A stretch of DNA of 36,590 nt from a virus: positions 1-36,590 of IMG/VR virus record IMGVR_UViG_3300046171_000096; one strand, written 5' to 3'. This document shows positions 2,948 to 36,288 of the stretch, piece after piece. A program made the position numbers and the translations under genes. The first letter of the stretch is position 1; every line of letters starts with the position of its first letter. A model generated the notes under the pieces. It had not been told where the DNA came from, searched no databases, and saw only the letters and a list, made by a program, of their open reading frames with translations.

Positions 2948-4624
2948 TTAAGATTTCACATCTAAAGAAACGACAGCATGAACATCAGCGTCACCTCTTA
3001 CTATATAATCCAGTCTATCAATAGCATTTGCTGCTGTCGAGAGTGTTGGTGCAGTACCACCAGGGAATCTATAAGCTGAATTATAAGCCAAGGTTCTTGA
3101 ACCAGTACCATCTTGCACAATAAATATAGATCCTGATTGACCTATACAATTAATAGCGTTTGTCTGATCTAAAGTTCTGTTACCACCTAATGTAACTGTA
3201 TGAATTACACCCGAAGCATAATCGACTGTAATGGTAGATCCATCTGAGAGTGTATTAATATCAGCTTTACACCTAGCATTGTTACCTAAGACAATACCAG
3301 CTGAAAAGGTTACTATTCCACTAGCACTGTCGTTTGCATCTGATCTTAAGAATTGACTTGAATCAATGCTATCTAAGGTTGCTGCGTTTCCTCCATCAGC
3401 AGAGGTTATATAACCAGCTCCATTAGTTATCGCATTATTATTAAGAGATATATTTGCTGTTCCATTAAATGAAACACCAGCTATGGTTCTAGCATTTGCT
3501 AACTGTGTGGCAGTAGCAGCATTACCAGAACAAGAACTTGATGATCCACTTACATTTCCCGTTACATTACCTGTTACTTGTCCAACAAAAGTTGTTGCAG
3601 ATAAAGACCCATTAGATGAATTAAATACTAAATTAGATCCTGTTTTAGGAGCTAGGTTACCTGATGCAGCTGTTGCAAATACAGGGAAACACTCAGTATC
3701 ACTTGATTCATCACCAACTGTTATGGTTGTTGCTATCGCTGCTGTTCCAGAAGTATTCTGGTTTCCACTGGTATTAACACCTGGAAGATTTATGTTAGCT
3801 GATCCATCAAAACTGACACCACCAATATTTCTTGCAGTTGTTAATGTCGCAGCAGATCCAGTTGTGTTCTGATTAAGAGTTGCTACTCTTGCAGCTGCTA
3901 CAGTTCCTGAAGATATATTTGATCCATTTAAAGTAGTTAAAGATGCTCCTGATCCACTGAATGTTGTGGCTGTGAGTAATCCAGATGAAGAATTAAATGT
4001 TAGATTAGATCCACTTTTAGGACCTAAATCACCTGTTGCTGCTGTAGCAAACAGAGGAAAACAAGTAGTATCAGAAGACTCATCAGCTACTGTAATTGAT
4101 GCAGCTGTTGTACCTGTTGGATTTGCAAATGATAATACTCCAGCACCATCTGTAACAAGAGATTGTCCTGAACTACCCTGAGCTGTTGGGAAGGTAGCAA
4201 CTTTAGTTCCATTAGAACTAACAGAAACTAATCCATTACCACTTCTGAAGATTCCTGTATCGGTGTCTGTAGTAAATGTGATGGAAGGAACTGCAGTTGA
4301 TCCATCTGGAAATGTTCCACCAGCATTAACATAATCTGCACCTGCAAAGATCACACCAAAGAATGCATGTCCATTTGTAGGAGCAGAACTGAATACTATA
4401 TTCGTTCCAGATAAACTGAATCCAGCAGAGCCTGAAGGATCAGGTTCCTGAATAACACCATTTACAGATATTAATAATTGTTGTTCAAACTTCGGAAAAG
4501 GAACAGGTGCTGACCCTCCGACTTGCAAAGCAAACGAAGTAGCACTACCATTGAAACCACTAGATATATCATCTATGATCTTGTAATCTTCGTTAGCTCT
4601 TATGTCATTTCCAATATATGGCAT
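2948..4624 (-). CDS. Tail fibre protein, repeat-rich
   Basis: A 558-residue protein dominated by Ser/Thr/Gly/Ala/Asn, typical of beta-helical phage fibres. The N-terminus MPYIGNDIRANEDYKIIDD resembles the virion-attachment end of many cyanophage fibres. A long motif occurs twice: SSDTTCFPLFATAATGDLGP near residue 185 and SSDTECFPVFATAASGNLAP near residue 305. Each copy is followed by K-S/T-GSNL-x-FNSS. Shorter G-N-V-T-G-N-V and ATQLANAR/TTARNIGGVSF elements are the usual fibre shaft repeats. The C-terminal ~100 residues (GGNRTLDQTNAINCIGQSG onward) are non-repetitive and may form the trimeric tip. Function is inferred from composition and neighbours. Confidence 0.75.
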   Translation of the reverse strand: MPYIGNDIRANEDYKIIDDISSGFNGSATSFALQVGGSAPVPFPKFEQQLLISVNGVIQEPDPSGSAGFSLSGTNIVFSSAPTNGHAFFGVIFAGADYVNAGGTFPDGSTAVPSITFTTDTDTGIFRSGNGLVSVSSNGTKVATFPTAQGSSGQSLVTDGAGVLSFANPTGTTAASITVADESSDTTCFPLFATAATGDLGPKSGSNLTFNSSSGLLTATTFSGSGASLTTLNGSNISSGTVAAARVATLNQNTTGSAATLTTARNIGGVSFDGSANINLPGVNTSGNQNTSGTAAIATTITVGDESSDTECFPVFATAASGNLAPKTGSNLVFNSSNGSLSATTFVGQVTGNVTGNVSGSSSSCSGNAATATQLANARTIAGVSFNGTANISLNNNAITNGAGYITSADGGNAATLDSIDSSQFLRSDANDSASGIVTFSAGIVLGNNARCKADINTLSDGSTITVDYASGVIHTVTLGGNRTLDQTNAINCIGQSGSIFIVQDGTGSRTLAYNSAYRFPGGTAPTLSTAANAIDRLDYIVRGDADVHAVVSLDVKS

Positions 4625-16669: not shown

Positions 16670-16899
16670 ATTTAATTTTCAGTTATTTGATCTGCTATTT
16701 GTAAACAAATAAACAGACAAAGCTGTGTTCACTCCTGGAACCAGAGTTCCATTAAGATTAATTATATCAGTACCTTATTTATGCACGTTATTAATATTTT
16801 AGGTTTTATAGTTTGTACTGCTAAACTAATAGCTGAATGTTTTAGTTATTTATACTTAGCATTCTCTCCCCAAACCGAGACCTATAGGGAGAATAAATT
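16670..16899. promoter_or_regulatory. Divergent control region between capsid operon and psbA
   Basis: 230 bases without a convincing gene separate the capsid start (minus) from the psbA leader ORF (plus). It must hold promoters for both strongly expressed units. A plus-strand TATACT (16851-16856) is a possible -10, without a good -35. On the minus strand, TATAAATA and CATAAATA occur at about 16847-16854 and 16776-16783; these match the T4-like late motif, but such words are common in AT-rich DNA. Exact promoters cannot be assigned by eye. Confidence 0.45.
16861..16894 (+). promoter_or_regulatory. Hairpin that could hide the psbA-leader ribosome site
   Basis: TCTCCC (16865-16870) pairs with GGGAGA (16887-16892) over a 16-base loop. 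With a two-base bulge, ATTCTC (16861-16866) can pair with GAGAAT (16889-16894). The right arm is the Shine-Dalgarno (AGGGAGA, 16886-16892) of the 25-codon ORF at 16900. Pairing would therefore block initiation there. A regulatory role is inference. Confidence 0.45.
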
Positions 16900-16977
16900 A
16901 TGTCTCTCATATCCATCAGTGAAGGGATTGATGGAAATATTAATATCGCTCTACCCTTGAGCCCTATTAAATTTTAA
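16900..16977 (+). CDS. Possible 25-residue leader peptide upstream of psbA
   Basis: ATG at 16900 is preceded, at an ideal seven-base distance, by AGGGAGA. The 25-codon frame begins [14 protein letters not shown], ends in TAA at 16975-16977 and stops seven bases before the psbA ATG, in a different frame. psbA itself has no recognisable Shine-Dalgarno (TAACGGTCTA precedes it), so translation of the leader could be needed to start psbA. The peptide resembles no family I know. It may be a regulatory uORF or a chance frame. Confidence 0.4.
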
Positions 16978-16984
16978 CGGTCTA

Positions 16985-18070
16985 ATGACAACTCTTTCAA
17001 GAAAAGAACAATTAGGTATCCTTACTGGATGGCCTGAGTTCTGCAAGTGGGTTACAAACACAAACAACCGCATCTATGTAGGTTGGTTTGGTGTTCTAAT
17101 GATTCCTTGCTTATTAGCAGCAGCTGCATGCTTCGTAATTGCATTCATCGCTGCACCACCTGTCGATATTGACGGTATTCGTGAACCAGTAGCTGGTTCC
17201 TTTTTATATGGAAACAACATCATCTCAGGAGCAGTCGTTCCTAGCTCAAACGCAATCGGACTACACTTCTACCCAATTTGGGAAGCAGCTACTTTGGATG
17301 AATGGTTGTACAACGGAGGACCATATCAACTCGTTATATTCCACTTTCTCATCGGTATCTCAGCTTACATGGGACGACAATGGGAACTTAGTTATAGATT
17401 AGGTATGAGACCTTGGATCTGTGTAGCTTATTCAGCTCCAGTGTCAGCAGCATTCGCAGTATTCCTTGTATACCCATTCGGTCAAGGTTCATTCTCTGAC
17501 GGAATGCCTTTAGGTATCTCTGGAACATTCAACTTCATGTTTGTTTTCCAGGCAGAGCACAACATTCTTATGCACCCATTCCACATGGCTGGTGTTGCAG
17601 GTATGTTCGGAGGATCTTTATTCTCAGCAATGCATGGTTCACTTGTTACTTCATCTCTAATCAGAGAAACAACTGAAGATGAATCTCAGAACTATGGTTA
17701 CAAATTCGGACAAGAAGAAGAAACTTATAACATCGTTGCAGCTCATGGCTACTTCGGTAGATTAATTTTCCAATATGCTTCTTTCAACAACAGCAGAAGT
17801 CTTCACTTCTTCCTAGCTGTATTCCCAGTTGTTTGTGTATGGTTAACATCTATGGGTATTTGCACAATGGCATTTAACCTAAATGGATTTAACTTCAACC
17901 AATCAGTTGTTGATGCAAACGGTAAAATCGTTCCTACATGGGGTGACGTTCTAAACAGAGCTAACTTAGGTATGGAAGTAATGCACGAGCGTAACGCTCA
18001 TAATTTCCCACTCGATCTAGCATGTGCTGAGTCTACAACAGTAGCTCTTACAGCTCCTGCAGTCGGTTAA
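16985..18070 (+). CDS. psbA: Photosystem II reaction centre protein D1
   Basis: The 361-residue product is a complete D1 with five transmembrane helices. It replaces damaged host D1 in thylakoid photosystem II during infection and so keeps electron flow and energy supply going. All key residues are present, shifted by +2 from standard numbering: redox Tyr Y163 and D172; E191 and H192 of the Mn/Yz site; H200 (P680 ligand); H217 and H274 (non-haem iron); S266 (QB site); H334, E335, H339, D344 and A346 (Mn cluster and C-terminal processing site). The 15-residue extension after A346 begins CAESTT. Residue 132 (standard 130) is Gln, the D1:1-type state. It is on the opposite strand to nearly all virion genes, followed by hli and a terminator. 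It has no clear SD of its own. Confidence 0.99.
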
Positions 18071-22429: not shown

Positions 22430-22457
22430 AAAAAAAGGGTAGCTATTAACTACCCTT
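22430..22457 (-). terminator. Terminator-like hairpin abutting the next ATG
   Basis: On the minus strand AAGGGTAG (22457-22450) pairs perfectly with CTACCCTT (22442-22435) over a seven-base loop, followed by Ts to 22431. It lies 28 bases after the scaffold-like gene's stop. Structure and T-run fit a Rho-independent terminator closing the packaging operon. Confidence 0.8.
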
Positions 22458-22484: not shown

Positions 22485-23519
22485 TTATTCCATTACTAAC
22501 ATCTTGTTTCTGAAGATATCAGGTGACTGTTGTGCCTGATTTAAATATCTCCATGCTTGAGCTGGATCTTTGTCAGTTACTGCTCCAAAGTTATTCCAAA
22601 AATCACCAGTGTTTTCTGGTGCTTGTGGCTGTGGAGGAACTGGCATCTGAGGACGTGCAAATCTTGGATCTGCCTGTGCTGCTGCAGCTTGCTGCTGTTG
22701 TAATGCAGCTGCTTGCTGCTGTTGTGTTATTCCTGGATTTCCTACATATTGTCCTGCTGACTCTTCTTCTACTGGATATGGACCATTAGGACCATAGAAT
22801 TCACAAGTGTAATCAGCTAATGTATCAGGATTAGTTAAAATCTGCTCATAAGCTTTATGCTCTTCAGATAATTCCTTTAATAAACCAACAGCTTCTTGTA
22901 GCTGATTGTTTGTTGTTATTAAAGCATCTTCGACTTTTACTGCATAGTCATTTAAGACTGCTGGAGCATCTGCACCGAAGTGATTAATTACTTCAAGACT
23001 TTCTGGACTTACCCCGTTTTCTAGGAGTTGCTGGTCGCTGATTGCCTGCGAAGTTTGGGAAGAGTTGTTCGAGTATGCCTGGTTGCTCCCGTTCAAAGGC
23101 TGCGATATCTGCTGACCCTGATTGTTGTATGAAGGAGCTTGTGGGGAACTGTAATTCGCCTGGCCGTACTCTTGTGTCGCTGGAGACTGTTGACCCAGGA
23201 AGGGGATTTGCACTGGTGAACTCAGGAGCCCTACCACCCGGTTGAATGCGTCCTTGTATGGATTCTCCGCTTGAGGAGCCGATGGGCTGCTCTGGGGGCT
23301 TGACGGTATAGGGGCGTATGGGACTTGTGTTGTACCCATCTGGGCTTGCACTTGTGGTGCTGGTGCCACTGCTGCCTGCTGAGGTGCTACCCACTGAGGC
23401 GTTGTCGCCACTGCTGGAGCCTGGGCTGCTGTTTGTGAAACTGGAGCCCCGTAGGTTGGCTGTGGGGTCGCTGATTGTTGGGGTACCGATTGGGTCGGCA
23501 TTGCGGTATCGGCCTGCAT
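22485..23519 (-). CDS. P/Q-rich scaffold-like protein overlapping the portal gene
   Basis: 344 residues. Residues 1-176 are Pro/Gln/Ala/Ser-rich and disordered, and are encoded in the +1 frame inside the last 527 bases of the portal gene. Residues ~165-235 form a coiled coil (DALITTNNQLQEAVGLLKEL). A Q/A-rich segment follows and the end is helical (AQAWRYLNQAQQSPDIFRNK). The start is well supported: AAGGAAG lies at 23526-23532, six bases from the ATG. Position after portal and a helical, acidic, partly disordered make-up fit a scaffolding protein, but no sequence signature proves it. A terminator follows 28 bases after the stop. Confidence 0.65.
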   Translation of the reverse strand: MQADTAMPTQSVPQQSATPQPTYGAPVSQTAAQAPAVATTPQWVAPQQAAVAPAPQVQAQMGTTQVPYAPIPSSPQSSPSAPQAENPYKDAFNRVVGLLSSPVQIPFLGQQSPATQEYGQANYSSPQAPSYNNQGQQISQPLNGSNQAYSNNSSQTSQAISDQQLLENGVSPESLEVINHFGADAPAVLNDYAVKVEDALITTNNQLQEAVGLLKELSEEHKAYEQILTNPDTLADYTCEFYGPNGPYPVEEESAGQYVGNPGITQQQQAAALQQQQAAAAQADPRFARPQMPVPPQPQAPENTGDFWNNFGAVTDKDPAQAWRYLNQAQQSPDIFRNKMLVME

Positions 23520-25251
23520 AAGTTACTTCCTTCTGGAGTGATTCTAGTGTTCTATATAAGAAAGGGGTGAGATCTAATCTCGGATCTGCAGCCATCGGAA
23601 TATCCGGTTGCTGCGGATGTGGTGTTCTCATTTCTTGATTGATTAAGTCAAGGAATTGAGAATAAGCCCTTTGTACTTGTCCTACCATTCTGAATGGAAA
23701 TCCCGATAACATACCGGCAACTTCATCATCAGTTTTTGATGGGAATAAGTACTTCAGTGCTTCTATGCTATCAACACCTAATTCTTGTAGGTTTCTACAG
23801 AATATAGATTGCTGTACTTTATCCTGTGCTGTATCTTCATAAACAGGTCCCATCCATCTCCAGGCAACAGTTCTATCACCATCCGGAACTAATCCAAGAA
23901 CACCATTTGGTATCTCTTTTGTTTCTCTGGCAAGGTCAATTGCTCTCTGTAATTTCTTTTCGTATGTAATCTTCTGCTTCTCAAACTTTGCTAAAGACTC
24001 AGGAGTATCATCTACAGGTTCTTCAGGATATTTAATACCAGAAGCCTGTGCTAATGTCTTACGGAATATCTGTTCCTCCTGAAAGATCATCAACTCAAAA
24101 CATTTACAAATACCATATTCATATATCTGTAAACATTTCTTTTTAGCTGTAGCACTTACTCTTCCATACTGAGATTTAATTTCAGTTGCAGTTACATTGC
24201 TGATTGATATATCATCAATACCACCTAAAGCTAAACGTATTTCATTTCTTAACTGTGATACATATCTAGATTGATCTGTACTTACTGCATTAGGAGTAAT
24301 AAAACCAACACGATCTGAAGGTTCCAAGTTAGCAATAACTCTGGGAACTCTCATTCCTTGACCTGGACTGCCATTATATCCGACTGGATTTCTACTTGTA
24401 GGATCTTGTTTATATGTAGATTGAAGTGTACTTAAATCAGAAGTAAATCCAGATTGACTTGAAATACTTGGTCTTTGTGGTGGAGCATCCTTACTACTTT
24501 CAACAATGTCCTGTTTAGGACGTGAAGATAATAAAGTTGGATTACCAAAGAATGAAAGGTTAGCTCTAATGTTTTTAACCATCTCATCATGAGCAACAAT
24601 CTGATTAGATATCCAATCAAACTCGCCACTACCGTCAGTACCAAAAGCATCAGGATTATTGAATACTTCTACACAAGGAATGAATTGAAGTGTGTTTGTA
24701 AGTTCTTTCTTATTTATTGCTGTAAAATCTTGTGGTCCATCAAAACTTAATTCCTGTTCACTATGTGTTTCTTCGATAGTCTCTGCTGTAATACGAAGAC
24801 GCATATATCTTTTATCTGTACTTAATCCAATCTGTGATCCACCAAAGCCTTTATTAGATTTAACTTTATAAGGATAGATAACTATTACTTCTTCTAACTC
24901 TCCCTCTGGAGAATAGAAAGTTCTATATGAATCTCTATCAAACCAATAAAGTCTATATGTTTTTTCTGTAGGACGAATATAAAATAAACCTTTTCCTAAA
25001 GCTAAAAAGTGATCCCATATGGAATCTAATCTTGCATCAAGCTGATTGAACTTAATTACCTGTTTTATAAAGTCATATCTCTGTGATCCGAAGTTATCTT
25101 GTTCAGGATAGAATTCAACACCCTGTCTGATACCAAACATCTTCATCTGTGATAGATGAGCGTTGATAAGCATCGTGTCAGCATTACCCGTTGATTCACG
25201 GCTTATTGCTGCTTTCAGCATTGATTCAAAAGTAGAATTAGTTTGATTCAT
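22993..25251 (-). CDS. Portal protein
   Basis: 752 residues. The N-terminal two thirds have the expected portal features: long helices (YDFIKQVIKFNQLDARLDSI), a YWFDRDSYRTFYSPEGE beta region and a helical stem-like part (KSQYGRVSATAKKKCLQIYE, FEKQKITYEKKLQRAIDLAR). It lies directly downstream of the large terminase, separated only by a 62-residue gene. The last ~175 residues (578-752) are Ser/Gly/Pro-rich and end in a basic PRKRGKSRKS tail; this part is encoded in the overlap with the scaffold-like gene. Total length is long for a portal, mainly because of that tail. Assignment rests on order and general character. Confidence 0.75.
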   Translation of the reverse strand: MNQTNSTFESMLKAAISRESTGNADTMLINAHLSQMKMFGIRQGVEFYPEQDNFGSQRYDFIKQVIKFNQLDARLDSIWDHFLALGKGLFYIRPTEKTYRLYWFDRDSYRTFYSPEGELEEVIVIYPYKVKSNKGFGGSQIGLSTDKRYMRLRITAETIEETHSEQELSFDGPQDFTAINKKELTNTLQFIPCVEVFNNPDAFGTDGSGEFDWISNQIVAHDEMVKNIRANLSFFGNPTLLSSRPKQDIVESSKDAPPQRPSISSQSGFTSDLSTLQSTYKQDPTSRNPVGYNGSPGQGMRVPRVIANLEPSDRVGFITPNAVSTDQSRYVSQLRNEIRLALGGIDDISISNVTATEIKSQYGRVSATAKKKCLQIYEYGICKCFELMIFQEEQIFRKTLAQASGIKYPEEPVDDTPESLAKFEKQKITYEKKLQRAIDLARETKEIPNGVLGLVPDGDRTVAWRWMGPVYEDTAQDKVQQSIFCRNLQELGVDSIEALKYLFPSKTDDEVAGMLSGFPFRMVGQVQRAYSQFLDLINQEMRTPHPQQPDIPMAADPRLDLTPFLYRTLESLQKEVTYAGRYRNADPIGTPTISDPTANLRGSSFTNSSPGSSSGDNASVGSTSAGSSGTSTTSASPDGYNTSPIRPYTVKPPEQPIGSSSGESIQGRIQPGGRAPEFTSANPLPGSTVSSDTRVRPGELQFPTSSFIQQSGSADIAAFEREQPGILEQLFPNFAGNQRPATPRKRGKSRKS

Positions 25252-33318: not shown

Positions 33319-36288
33319 CTAACCTCCCTGTTGTCTTCTTTTCTCTGACATTCTTTTTGCTATTAATGCATTTACATCTAATGCTCTTCCTATACCTTCT
33401 TCACTTGTTATACCTGAACTACTTGTTGATTCTGGTGCATTTGATTTTTGTATGGGAATACCACCAATTACTCTTTTGCCTTTATTTCTCATAGTTTTAA
33501 TCATATCTTTAGTTCCAGCTCCTCCAGGGAAAGCAATTAAGACATCTCCTTCTGCAGCCATATCTGCATTACGTATTGGACCAGCTGCTTTTCCATATTC
33601 ATTCCAATCTGCTTTAAATCTTTGTATACCTAATTTATTTTCACTAGCATAGCGTTCTCCTAAATTATCAGCTCCTTTGGCTCCTCCAGAAATAATATTT
33701 ATTTCTGTGCCAGGTTTTAAAGTTGATCTAAAATTATCTAACTTAGTTTTTACAGCTTCATAATCAGAATAATCTCTACCTCCAGCTACTATGACATTTA
33801 GTGGTCTGCTTTCAGATTTTTCTTTAGCAGCCTGTCTAAGTTCTCCTGTAGGATCTTTTTGATTTAAATAATTTTGAACACGTTGTTTAACTGTAGTTGG
33901 ATCTCCTGTTTTGTAAATCTCTTGAATCTCACCAGCTATGCCAGTAGGTTTAGATCCTGCTGTCATATCTCCAACAGTAACTTCTCTAAGATCTCCATCT
34001 CTATCTTTTATAAGCTTAGTGCCAGGTTGTTGTAAAGAGAATCCCCCTTGTTTACCTGTTTCTACTTCTTCTGGAAAATCGAGCCCACCAGTATCTATTA
34101 CTCGTTTAGTATCTTGTTTTCTTTCAATATCTGGAATAACTTTAACTTCAAGTTGAGGATCTAATTTATTAAATCCACCTGTTGTTAAATCATCTCTTTG
34201 TTGTACATCTACTTTGTAACCTGTACCTCTTTCTTTTCCAAAGTTTTGTAAGGTTCTAGGAACTGATAAGTTACGTATATTCTCATCTGTTTTTCTTGTG
34301 ATGCCAGGGATTCTAGATTTTTGTTTAGCATAACTACCACGTAATTTATTTAACTCAGTTTCAACACGTTCTACCCCTGCTATGTTACCATCTTCTCTTA
34401 AACTATTTTGTAAATCTTTTAGTGCTTGTCCTCTTCGATTAATTGCCATCATATTATTTTTAGCTTCCATTTTTATCTTTCCTCTATAGTCTTTTTCTTG
34501 TTGTATTCTTTCATCTAATCTTTTTGCAGTAGGACCAAATGCAGCTGGTCTTTCAATGTCTGCTCTATCAATATTTTCACCACCTATTCTTACTGTTGTC
34601 TTACTTGGATCTTGCATGATTTCATCAAAGTCAGCACCCAATTGTATGTTCTGTTTTAGTTTAGTAAATTCAGGTCCAAAGTCAGCTGCTCTATCTCCTA
34701 TCATTACTGCTGTCATTTGATCAGCATGACTACGAGCTAATCTAGGACTATTTTTATATATTAATCCAGATTTTAATCTGTCACCAAGAATTTCAGCTTG
34801 TTTTGGACTTACATTACCAGATATTAAATTTTCCATATTTTCTAAACGTAAATTATTTATTCTTGATTCCATATCATCTTGTTGTGGAATTCCTGTGCTA
34901 AATTTTCCAGGCATTACTGTTCCACTAGATACTGGACCTTCAGAGAATTGATCTTCTATAAACTCTCTTGTGTTCTGTCCTTGTTGTAACATTTGTCCTT
35001 TAACTTCTTCACCAGTTCCAACATCACTGGCAGCAGCAAATATATCTTCTTTAGGTTCTATTCTTGGTAATTTTGTAACTGCTAAAGATGGATTTCTTTC
35101 TTGTAACTTTCCAACTGGTGTTGTAGGAGCTGTTTCTATACCTGCTCCAGTTCTTCGTTGACCTGTAGTTGTAACTCCTGTTATTTGTACTGGACCACTT
35201 ACATTCCCTACTTCTGGTCTTCCTGGTAATAGTTTTTGTTCATCAGTTTTCTGAAGTATATTTCTTGCATCGTCTAAAACATTATCAACTTCCATCTTTG
35301 TAAGATGTTGATCTGTCAATGTAGATCCGCCAACTTCCCCTGCACTGGTAGGAATTACATTTGTGGTATTTCCAGTACCAAGTTGTACTAAAGCACTCCC
35401 TTGTTGTACACTTTCGGGGAGTATTATTTTTGGTCCAGGTTTTACAAGATTTATAAGCTCATCTACTTGTGCTGGTATCTGTGAAGCTATCTTTAATTCA
35501 CCAAGAGCTTTTCTATATGGAGTTTGTGGTCCTACAGCAGGATCTAAATCATATCCAGCAAACTTACGACCTGTTATTGTTGCATCTTCATCAGTTCTTC
35601 CTCTTACATTAGAATTTACATAGCCAAGATCAAAGTCTCTAGCTTTTCCTGCTTCTCTTATGAGTGATTGTTTTGTTCTTGCAGCATCTTCTGGATTTAA
35701 ATTACTAAGATATTTTCCATATGTACGATCAACTCTTTGTTCTAGATTACTAATATCTCCATAAGGATCTTCTTTACTAATAGAACCTTCTGTAAAAGAA
35801 GTTTTACCTTGAACTATAGGTGTAAAACTATCTTTCTCAGGAGTTACTTCTACTGTGACTTGAGTTTTCTGAGCTGGAGCTGTATTTGACTGTTGTACTG
35901 AAGGATCTGGAGTTACATCACCATATGCATCGACAATATCTACATCAACATCTTTTGGACGGGCAAAATTACTTAAAAAGTCATCTGCTTTAGTTCTTGT
36001 AGCAGCAGCAGCCTTTTTTACTGTGTTTTGAACACGTTCATCTCTACCAGCAGCTACCGCAGCAGCAATTCCACCAGCAATTAATGCTCCTTTAGCTATT
36101 TTTTTACCTAAATCTCCTTCTTTTTTTGGTTCTTCAGCTTCTTTTCCCTCTAGCATCCCTTCTTTACCCAAATTCTGGATAAAATTATGTACTTCAGGAC
36201 CCTTTTGGGCTCTTTCTTTAGGAGTGGAAGGATACTTATTACCTGTTAACCTTGCCCAGAGTGAAAAATCGTTCGGAGATATGACCAT
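33319..36288 (-). CDS. Large putative internal virion protein with C-terminal SLOG domain
   Basis: 989 residues, the largest gene here and first of the internal virion block. A hydrophobic segment (KGALIAGGIAAAVAAGRDER) lies near residue 70. A long, mostly disordered or helical region with two near-copies of a helix (e.g. KRLDERIQQEKDYRGKIKME) occupies ~90-820. Residues 828-941 form a clear SLOG (DUF2493/YspA-like) domain: NVIVAGGRDYSDYE, ISGGAKGADNLGERYA, GPIRNADM and FPGGAGTKDM, i.e. a Rossmann-type nucleotide-binding site with its G-G, G-G-A-x-G-A-D and P-G-G-x-G-T loops. A 48-residue basic tail follows. SLOG proteins bind nucleotides or ADP-ribose-like ligands. The virion role comes from neighbours and composition. 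Confidence 0.65.
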   Translation of the reverse strand: MVISPNDFSLWARLTGNKYPSTPKERAQKGPEVHNFIQNLGKEGMLEGKEAEEPKKEGDLGKKIAKGALIAGGIAAAVAAGRDERVQNTVKKAAAATRTKADDFLSNFARPKDVDVDIVDAYGDVTPDPSVQQSNTAPAQKTQVTVEVTPEKDSFTPIVQGKTSFTEGSISKEDPYGDISNLEQRVDRTYGKYLSNLNPEDAARTKQSLIREAGKARDFDLGYVNSNVRGRTDEDATITGRKFAGYDLDPAVGPQTPYRKALGELKIASQIPAQVDELINLVKPGPKIILPESVQQGSALVQLGTGNTTNVIPTSAGEVGGSTLTDQHLTKMEVDNVLDDARNILQKTDEQKLLPGRPEVGNVSGPVQITGVTTTGQRRTGAGIETAPTTPVGKLQERNPSLAVTKLPRIEPKEDIFAAASDVGTGEEVKGQMLQQGQNTREFIEDQFSEGPVSSGTVMPGKFSTGIPQQDDMESRINNLRLENMENLISGNVSPKQAEILGDRLKSGLIYKNSPRLARSHADQMTAVMIGDRAADFGPEFTKLKQNIQLGADFDEIMQDPSKTTVRIGGENIDRADIERPAAFGPTAKRLDERIQQEKDYRGKIKMEAKNNMMAINRRGQALKDLQNSLREDGNIAGVERVETELNKLRGSYAKQKSRIPGITRKTDENIRNLSVPRTLQNFGKERGTGYKVDVQQRDDLTTGGFNKLDPQLEVKVIPDIERKQDTKRVIDTGGLDFPEEVETGKQGGFSLQQPGTKLIKDRDGDLREVTVGDMTAGSKPTGIAGEIQEIYKTGDPTTVKQRVQNYLNQKDPTGELRQAAKEKSESRPLNVIVAGGRDYSDYEAVKTKLDNFRSTLKPGTEINIISGGAKGADNLGERYASENKLGIQRFKADWNEYGKAAGPIRNADMAAEGDVLIAFPGGAGTKDMIKTMRNKGKRVIGGIPIQKSNAPESTSSSGITSEEGIGRALDVNALIAKRMSEKRRQQGG

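Follow-up and report, generated by a model that had tools for sequence, protein, structure and literature searches.

The stretch of DNA analysed here (hereafter, the window) is the 36,590-base virus record IMGVR_UViG_3300046171_000096, which has a photosystem II gene, psbA, aboard. A portal matching that of the window was found in one phage record out of 50,697, that of Synechococcus phage S-EIV1. This single match and the presence of psbA make a cyanophage the most likely source. The structural genes lie on the minus strand in the order terminase, portal, second gene, small genes and capsid, and the portal gene and the gene following it share more than 500 bases. The features referred to below are as follows.

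27004-25481, minus strand: large terminase gene, just upstream of the portal gene
22993..25251, minus strand (ORF 25251..22993): portal gene, 752 amino acids, identified from the ORF, PHROG 20475 and the predicted structure
22485..23519, minus strand: second gene, 344 amino acids, pI 4.2, proposed scaffolding protein (ORF, kept in relatives, AlphaFold model, charge and pI); residues 1-176 lie in the overlap and the helical C-terminal half outside it
22993..23519, minus strand: +1 overlap of 527 nt, 56% GC, conserved, with substitution patterns that indicate dual coding under selection
23520..23534, minus strand: start signal of the second gene inside the portal gene (AAGGAAG, TAACTT, ATG)
23225..23263, minus strand: short conserved helix of the second protein (residues 87-99), within the overlap
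23050..23085, minus strand: conserved portal tail motif QPGILEQLFPNF (residues 723-734), a predicted short helix
22996..23070, minus strand: basic end of the portal tail, the last 25 residues, with a group mean net charge of +5 to +7
22435-22457, minus strand: terminator-like hairpin with a T run, directly 3′ of the second gene (pattern scan only)
16985-18070, plus strand: psbA, on the opposite strand, between the second gene and the capsid gene
16669-15521, minus strand: capsid gene, separated from the second gene by several small genes

The hairpin at 22435-22457 suggests that a transcription unit ends there. The phage psbA is closely preceded by a PhotoRC-II RNA motif at 16853-16948, like psbA on the plus strand and thus opposite in strand to the structural genes. 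Elsewhere in the window, 33319-36288 (minus strand) encodes a 989-residue protein that carries, towards its C-terminus, a YspA-related SLOG domain.

The product of the first of the two overlapping genes matched PHROG 20475, a virion structural protein. Its predicted structure returned 43 PDB matches (E<=0.001) with portal or portal-tail entries on top, the best being those of 80alpha, SaPI1, T7, cyanophage P-SCSP1u and Pan3. On the modelled portal fold and on a gene position beside the large terminase and upstream of the capsid gene, this protein is the portal. The core was modelled with moderate confidence as a folded region of approximately residues 1-577, and its last helix stops at residue 578, at the start of the overlap. 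The tail encoded by the overlap (residues 578-752) was modelled with low confidence and is predicted to be disordered, except for the short conserved helix region, whose motif reads QPGxLxQLFPN in the window's group. Averaged within each group, the last 25 residues are basic. In portal proteins the C-terminus points into the capsid. For the second protein, the AlphaFold model, also of low confidence, is disordered up to about residue 160 save for one short helix, and helical thereafter (185-241 and 306-342). The low-confidence models of the portal tail and of the N-terminal half of the second protein thus agree with a sequence-only reading of this DNA, which had described both overlapping segments as disordered.

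That reading had also correctly located the second ORF, which begins inside the portal gene and is shifted by +1 relative to it, and had recognized the Shine–Dalgarno sequence AAGGAAG at a 6-base spacing; the sequence upstream of the second gene is CAGAAGGAAGTAACTTATG. Its remark that the overlap is unusually long is borne out by published surveys. Most overlaps in DNA viruses are short, with a median of 15.6 nt, and +1 overlaps in viruses have a median of 14 nt (PMC8903798), as against 527 nt here; 84% of virus overlaps are shorter than 50 nt (PMC7017920).

The overlap is not peculiar to the window. It was kept in all of 375 related loci, representing 275 distinct overlap sequences, some contigs being present more than once among these loci; each scan for relatives took the best 80 matches, so that the edge of the lineage lies beyond the matches listed. 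Every first-scan relative with a complete portal had the same +1 overlap, and it was present in 157/157 loci after the second scan, in 82/82 of a more distant set with many GTG starts (portal identity 42–50% to the window or S-EIV1) and in 136/136 of a further set. Its length ranged from 425 to 641 nt with a median of 527, the minimum being that of locus L381, which is cut by the contig end. Even in a metagenome-assembled genome (MAG) locus in which the portal frame is broken upstream (L170), the overlap is kept. Both frames were open throughout, and a homologue with only one open frame was found in none of the 375 loci. Likewise, no relative without the overlap appeared among the listed matches when viral contigs and a genome collection were searched with portals, portal alignments or the second protein as queries. 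The viruses bearing the overlap are a large aquatic lineage related to cyanophage S-EIV1.

The overlap might owe its second open frame merely to high G+C content and low complexity, with one of the two frames alone being functional. Indeed, raised G+C lowers the frequency of stop codons, and both products are of low complexity. The G+C counts given earlier for this region were exact (73/120 at 23281-23400 and 18/60 at 22861-22920), and the overlap stands at 56–57% G+C, compared with 36% in the portal body, 40% where the second gene is single-coded and 37% in the whole window. However, the remaining four frames of the 527-base overlap contain 3–8 stops, and shuffling of synonymous codons with one protein kept introduced a mean of 2.2–9.3 stops into the other frame, as against none in 122 natural sequences, so that the openness exceeds chance. 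It persists, together with the start signal and the motifs, in four divergent groups. The composition itself appears to be shaped by dual coding, as had been proposed: back-translation with the codon usage of the portal body predicts 43% G+C for the portal tail and 46% for the second protein, whereas 57% is observed. At the third position of portal codons, C accounts for 42% in the overlap versus 9% in the body, an excess that is expected if the same bases stand second in codons of the other gene for Pro, Ala, Ser and Thr.

Substitution patterns bear on the same question, and related phages had been suggested as material for measuring synonymous constraint frame by frame. In independent pairs of the divergence bin 0.08–0.15, portal fourfold sites differed at 0.314 outside the overlap and at 0.040 inside it, an 8-fold drop in portal-synonymous change, while fourfold sites of the second gene differed at 0.246 outside and at 0.113 inside. 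When the four groups were taken apart, portal fourfold change fell from 0.38–0.46 to 0.07–0.11 in the overlap, and that of the second gene from 0.32–0.39 to 0.16–0.20. The low synonymous change is not a regional mutation effect, because amino acids are replaced more rapidly within the overlap than in the body of the portal. An internal control was provided by synonymous sites of the second gene at which the rest of the portal codon was unchanged, using C/T exchange at Leu codons. Exchanges silent in both frames occurred at 0.178, close to the 0.197 of single-coded sequence, whereas those altering the portal occurred at 0.026, implying that the sequence of the portal tail is itself maintained by selection. 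In relative terms, the second gene was the more constrained, changing at approximately 0.17–0.24 of the free rate as against approximately 0.5 in the portal tail. Both frames are constrained, and by these comparative measures the overlap is a case of true dual coding in which purifying selection holds both proteins. That one frame alone should be functional is accordingly very improbable.

A different way of reading the second frame would be programmed ribosomal frameshifting from the portal gene, yielding a portal–scaffold fusion. There is indeed a +1 offset between the frames, and phages are known to make some structural proteins by frameshifting. Against this, the second gene has its own Shine–Dalgarno sequence followed by ATG or GTG, a signal kept in the relatives (for example AGGAGATGAGTTATG, AAGAGGTAACCTATG and AGGAGTTAAGTTACAGTG). 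Moreover, in most of the sequences inspected an in-frame stop codon (in the window, a TAA two codons ahead of the ATG) closely precedes the start and blocks entry from upstream. A fusion would also give no reason for conservation of the portal tail frame, and yet the tail is conserved. Frameshifting is therefore highly unlikely, and the conserved signal and the upstream stop point to separate initiation inside the portal gene. It had been supposed that the coupling of the two genes would fix the portal to scaffold ratio; this finds no support, the second gene having its own initiation signal. In tailed phages generally, the demand for scaffold subunits greatly exceeds that for portal subunits.

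The assignment of the second protein is less straightforward. It matched no PHROG or Pfam family and no sequence relative in the PDB; homology to gp9 of P-SSP7 was considered and ruled out, there being no profile match to that scaffold. The earlier label ‘scaffold-like’ consequently stands as regards position, acidity and helices, but it gains nothing from similarity to a known scaffold, which was found neither by sequence nor by profile. This lack of homology, and the other small genes between portal and capsid, would also suit a second protein that is some other head or internal virion protein within a genuinely dual-coded pair. We regard this as a serious, if somewhat doubtful, alternative. 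The gene adjoins that of the portal, and its acidic product (pI near 4.2 in the window; 4.05–4.34 in four second proteins computed), with a helical C-terminal half and a disordered N-terminus, has features that fit scaffolds, while inspection of the small genes revealed no better scaffold candidate. The second gene thus probably encodes a scaffolding protein, judging from position, acidity and predicted helices and disorder.

The overlap can be compared with several known systems. Closest is S-EIV1 (KJ410740), which has the same portal and, in the same place and with a similar start signal, an overlap of 554 nt between a 767-residue portal and a 325-residue second ORF, although it is a freshwater phage and its portal is 53% identical to that of the window. 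In GenBank, a 133-residue fragment of the S-EIV1 second gene is given and no overlap is annotated. At 3293-4444 and 3758-4519 of the S-EIV1 record (L081), the capsid gene is a GTG-start ORF of 383 residues, 70% identical to the capsid protein of the window; the GenBank entry has a short fragment there, with the remainder covered by an antisense CDS. The T7-like phages resemble the window in their portal fold and in the order portal (gp8), scaffold (gp9) and capsid, and in P-SSP7 psbA likewise lies between scaffold and capsid; however, gp8 and gp9 of P-SSP7 share a single base, and its gp8 has 522 residues, a shortfall roughly equal to the tail. In lambda, the Nu3 scaffold is encoded within head gene C but in the frame of C, so that there is no dual coding. 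Gene B of phiX174 encodes an internal scaffolding protein and, like the second gene here, it is a same-strand, out-of-frame gene with its own start, inside gene A. In phiX174, each of B, K and E is read in another frame than its partner gene (PMC3608072). Nevertheless, phiX174 is a small ssDNA phage under strong size limits, with B fully nested in a replication gene, whereas the window holds a terminal overlap between a portal and a probable scaffold in a tailed dsDNA phage. Descriptions of this overlap were absent from the literature searched. Prodigal accepts same-strand overlaps of up to 60 bp (PMC2848648). Ordinary gene finders would therefore overlook the arrangement, and automatic annotation of this lineage will probably shorten either of the two head proteins, as happened in S-EIV1.

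The sequence-only reading had taken one of the two disordered segments for a recent overprinted novelty, that is, a young acquisition of this phage. Disorder is typical of overlapping proteins, and together with restricted family distribution it is usual for de novo overprinted ones (PMC8227390). Nevertheless, the overlap occurs in every relative found, including those whose portal bodies are just 47–57% identical, and it is present in all four groups instead of being confined to close relatives. A recent origin is thus contradicted and very improbable. Most likely the overlap had a single origin, in the common ancestor, and has been fixed ever since because a change of stop or start in either gene would harm the other. 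As to which reading frame came first, two points suggest that the portal tail is the later addition, laid over the second gene: selection is stronger on the second gene, and T7-type phages have shorter portals. Codon usage leans slightly against the tail as the later addition: both overlap frames correlate poorly, with a slight advantage for the portal frame in three groups. Same-strand overlaps of such length are uncommon in dsDNA viruses, and the usual explanations are limits on genome size or youth. With a nearest complete relative whose genome measures 79 kb, compression is unconvincing as the cause of a 527-nt overlap.

Taken as a whole, we consider it quite probable that this is a genuine, ancient overlap in which both proteins are under selection, the second gene is independently initiated and encodes a scaffold, and the portal ends in a disordered, basic tail. 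Ribosomes would initiate the second gene at its own Shine–Dalgarno sequence and start codon inside the portal gene, and the two disordered segments probably allow a single sequence to serve both proteins. Conjecturally, the disordered, basic-ended portal tail may contact the acidic scaffold or DNA inside the capsid. It is tempting to go further and to imagine portal and scaffold, throughout this lineage of tailed dsDNA phages, as a co-evolved, dual-coded assembly pair that bind each other and so place the portal at a single vertex, a scenario that we hold to be rather unlikely. If true, some 500 shared bases would encode both a basic portal tail and an acidic scaffold N-terminus, partners on the same DNA. 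The lineage in any case offers hundreds of natural sequences in which the sharing of a single stretch of DNA by two proteins can be measured.

Synonymous change is also low upstream of the overlap, at 23541-23811 (minus strand, portal codons 481–570), where it is about one-third of that in the portal body in close pairs and largely fades in distant ones. A second ORF as the cause was ruled out, no other frame being open. RNAalifold proposed a long-range 17-bp helix across these codons, which was rejected as unsupported: in 51 sequences most of its pairs are invariant and some break (A–C in 17/51). The region matched nothing in Rfam, and a pattern scan for a sigma-70 promoter inside the portal gene gave no more matches than expected by chance. 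Within it lies a near-invariant stretch, GAATTAGGTGTTGATAGCATWGAAGCACTGAAG, at 23752-23784 (minus strand, portal codons 490–500), approximately 265 nt before the start of the second gene; it was found in 141/162 loci and is kept in the S-EIV1-like groups, not in two more distant ones. In one distant group, a gene that by eye resembles a bacterial primary-type sigma factor follows soon after the second gene (L166, 6187-7128; L169, 5962-6900).
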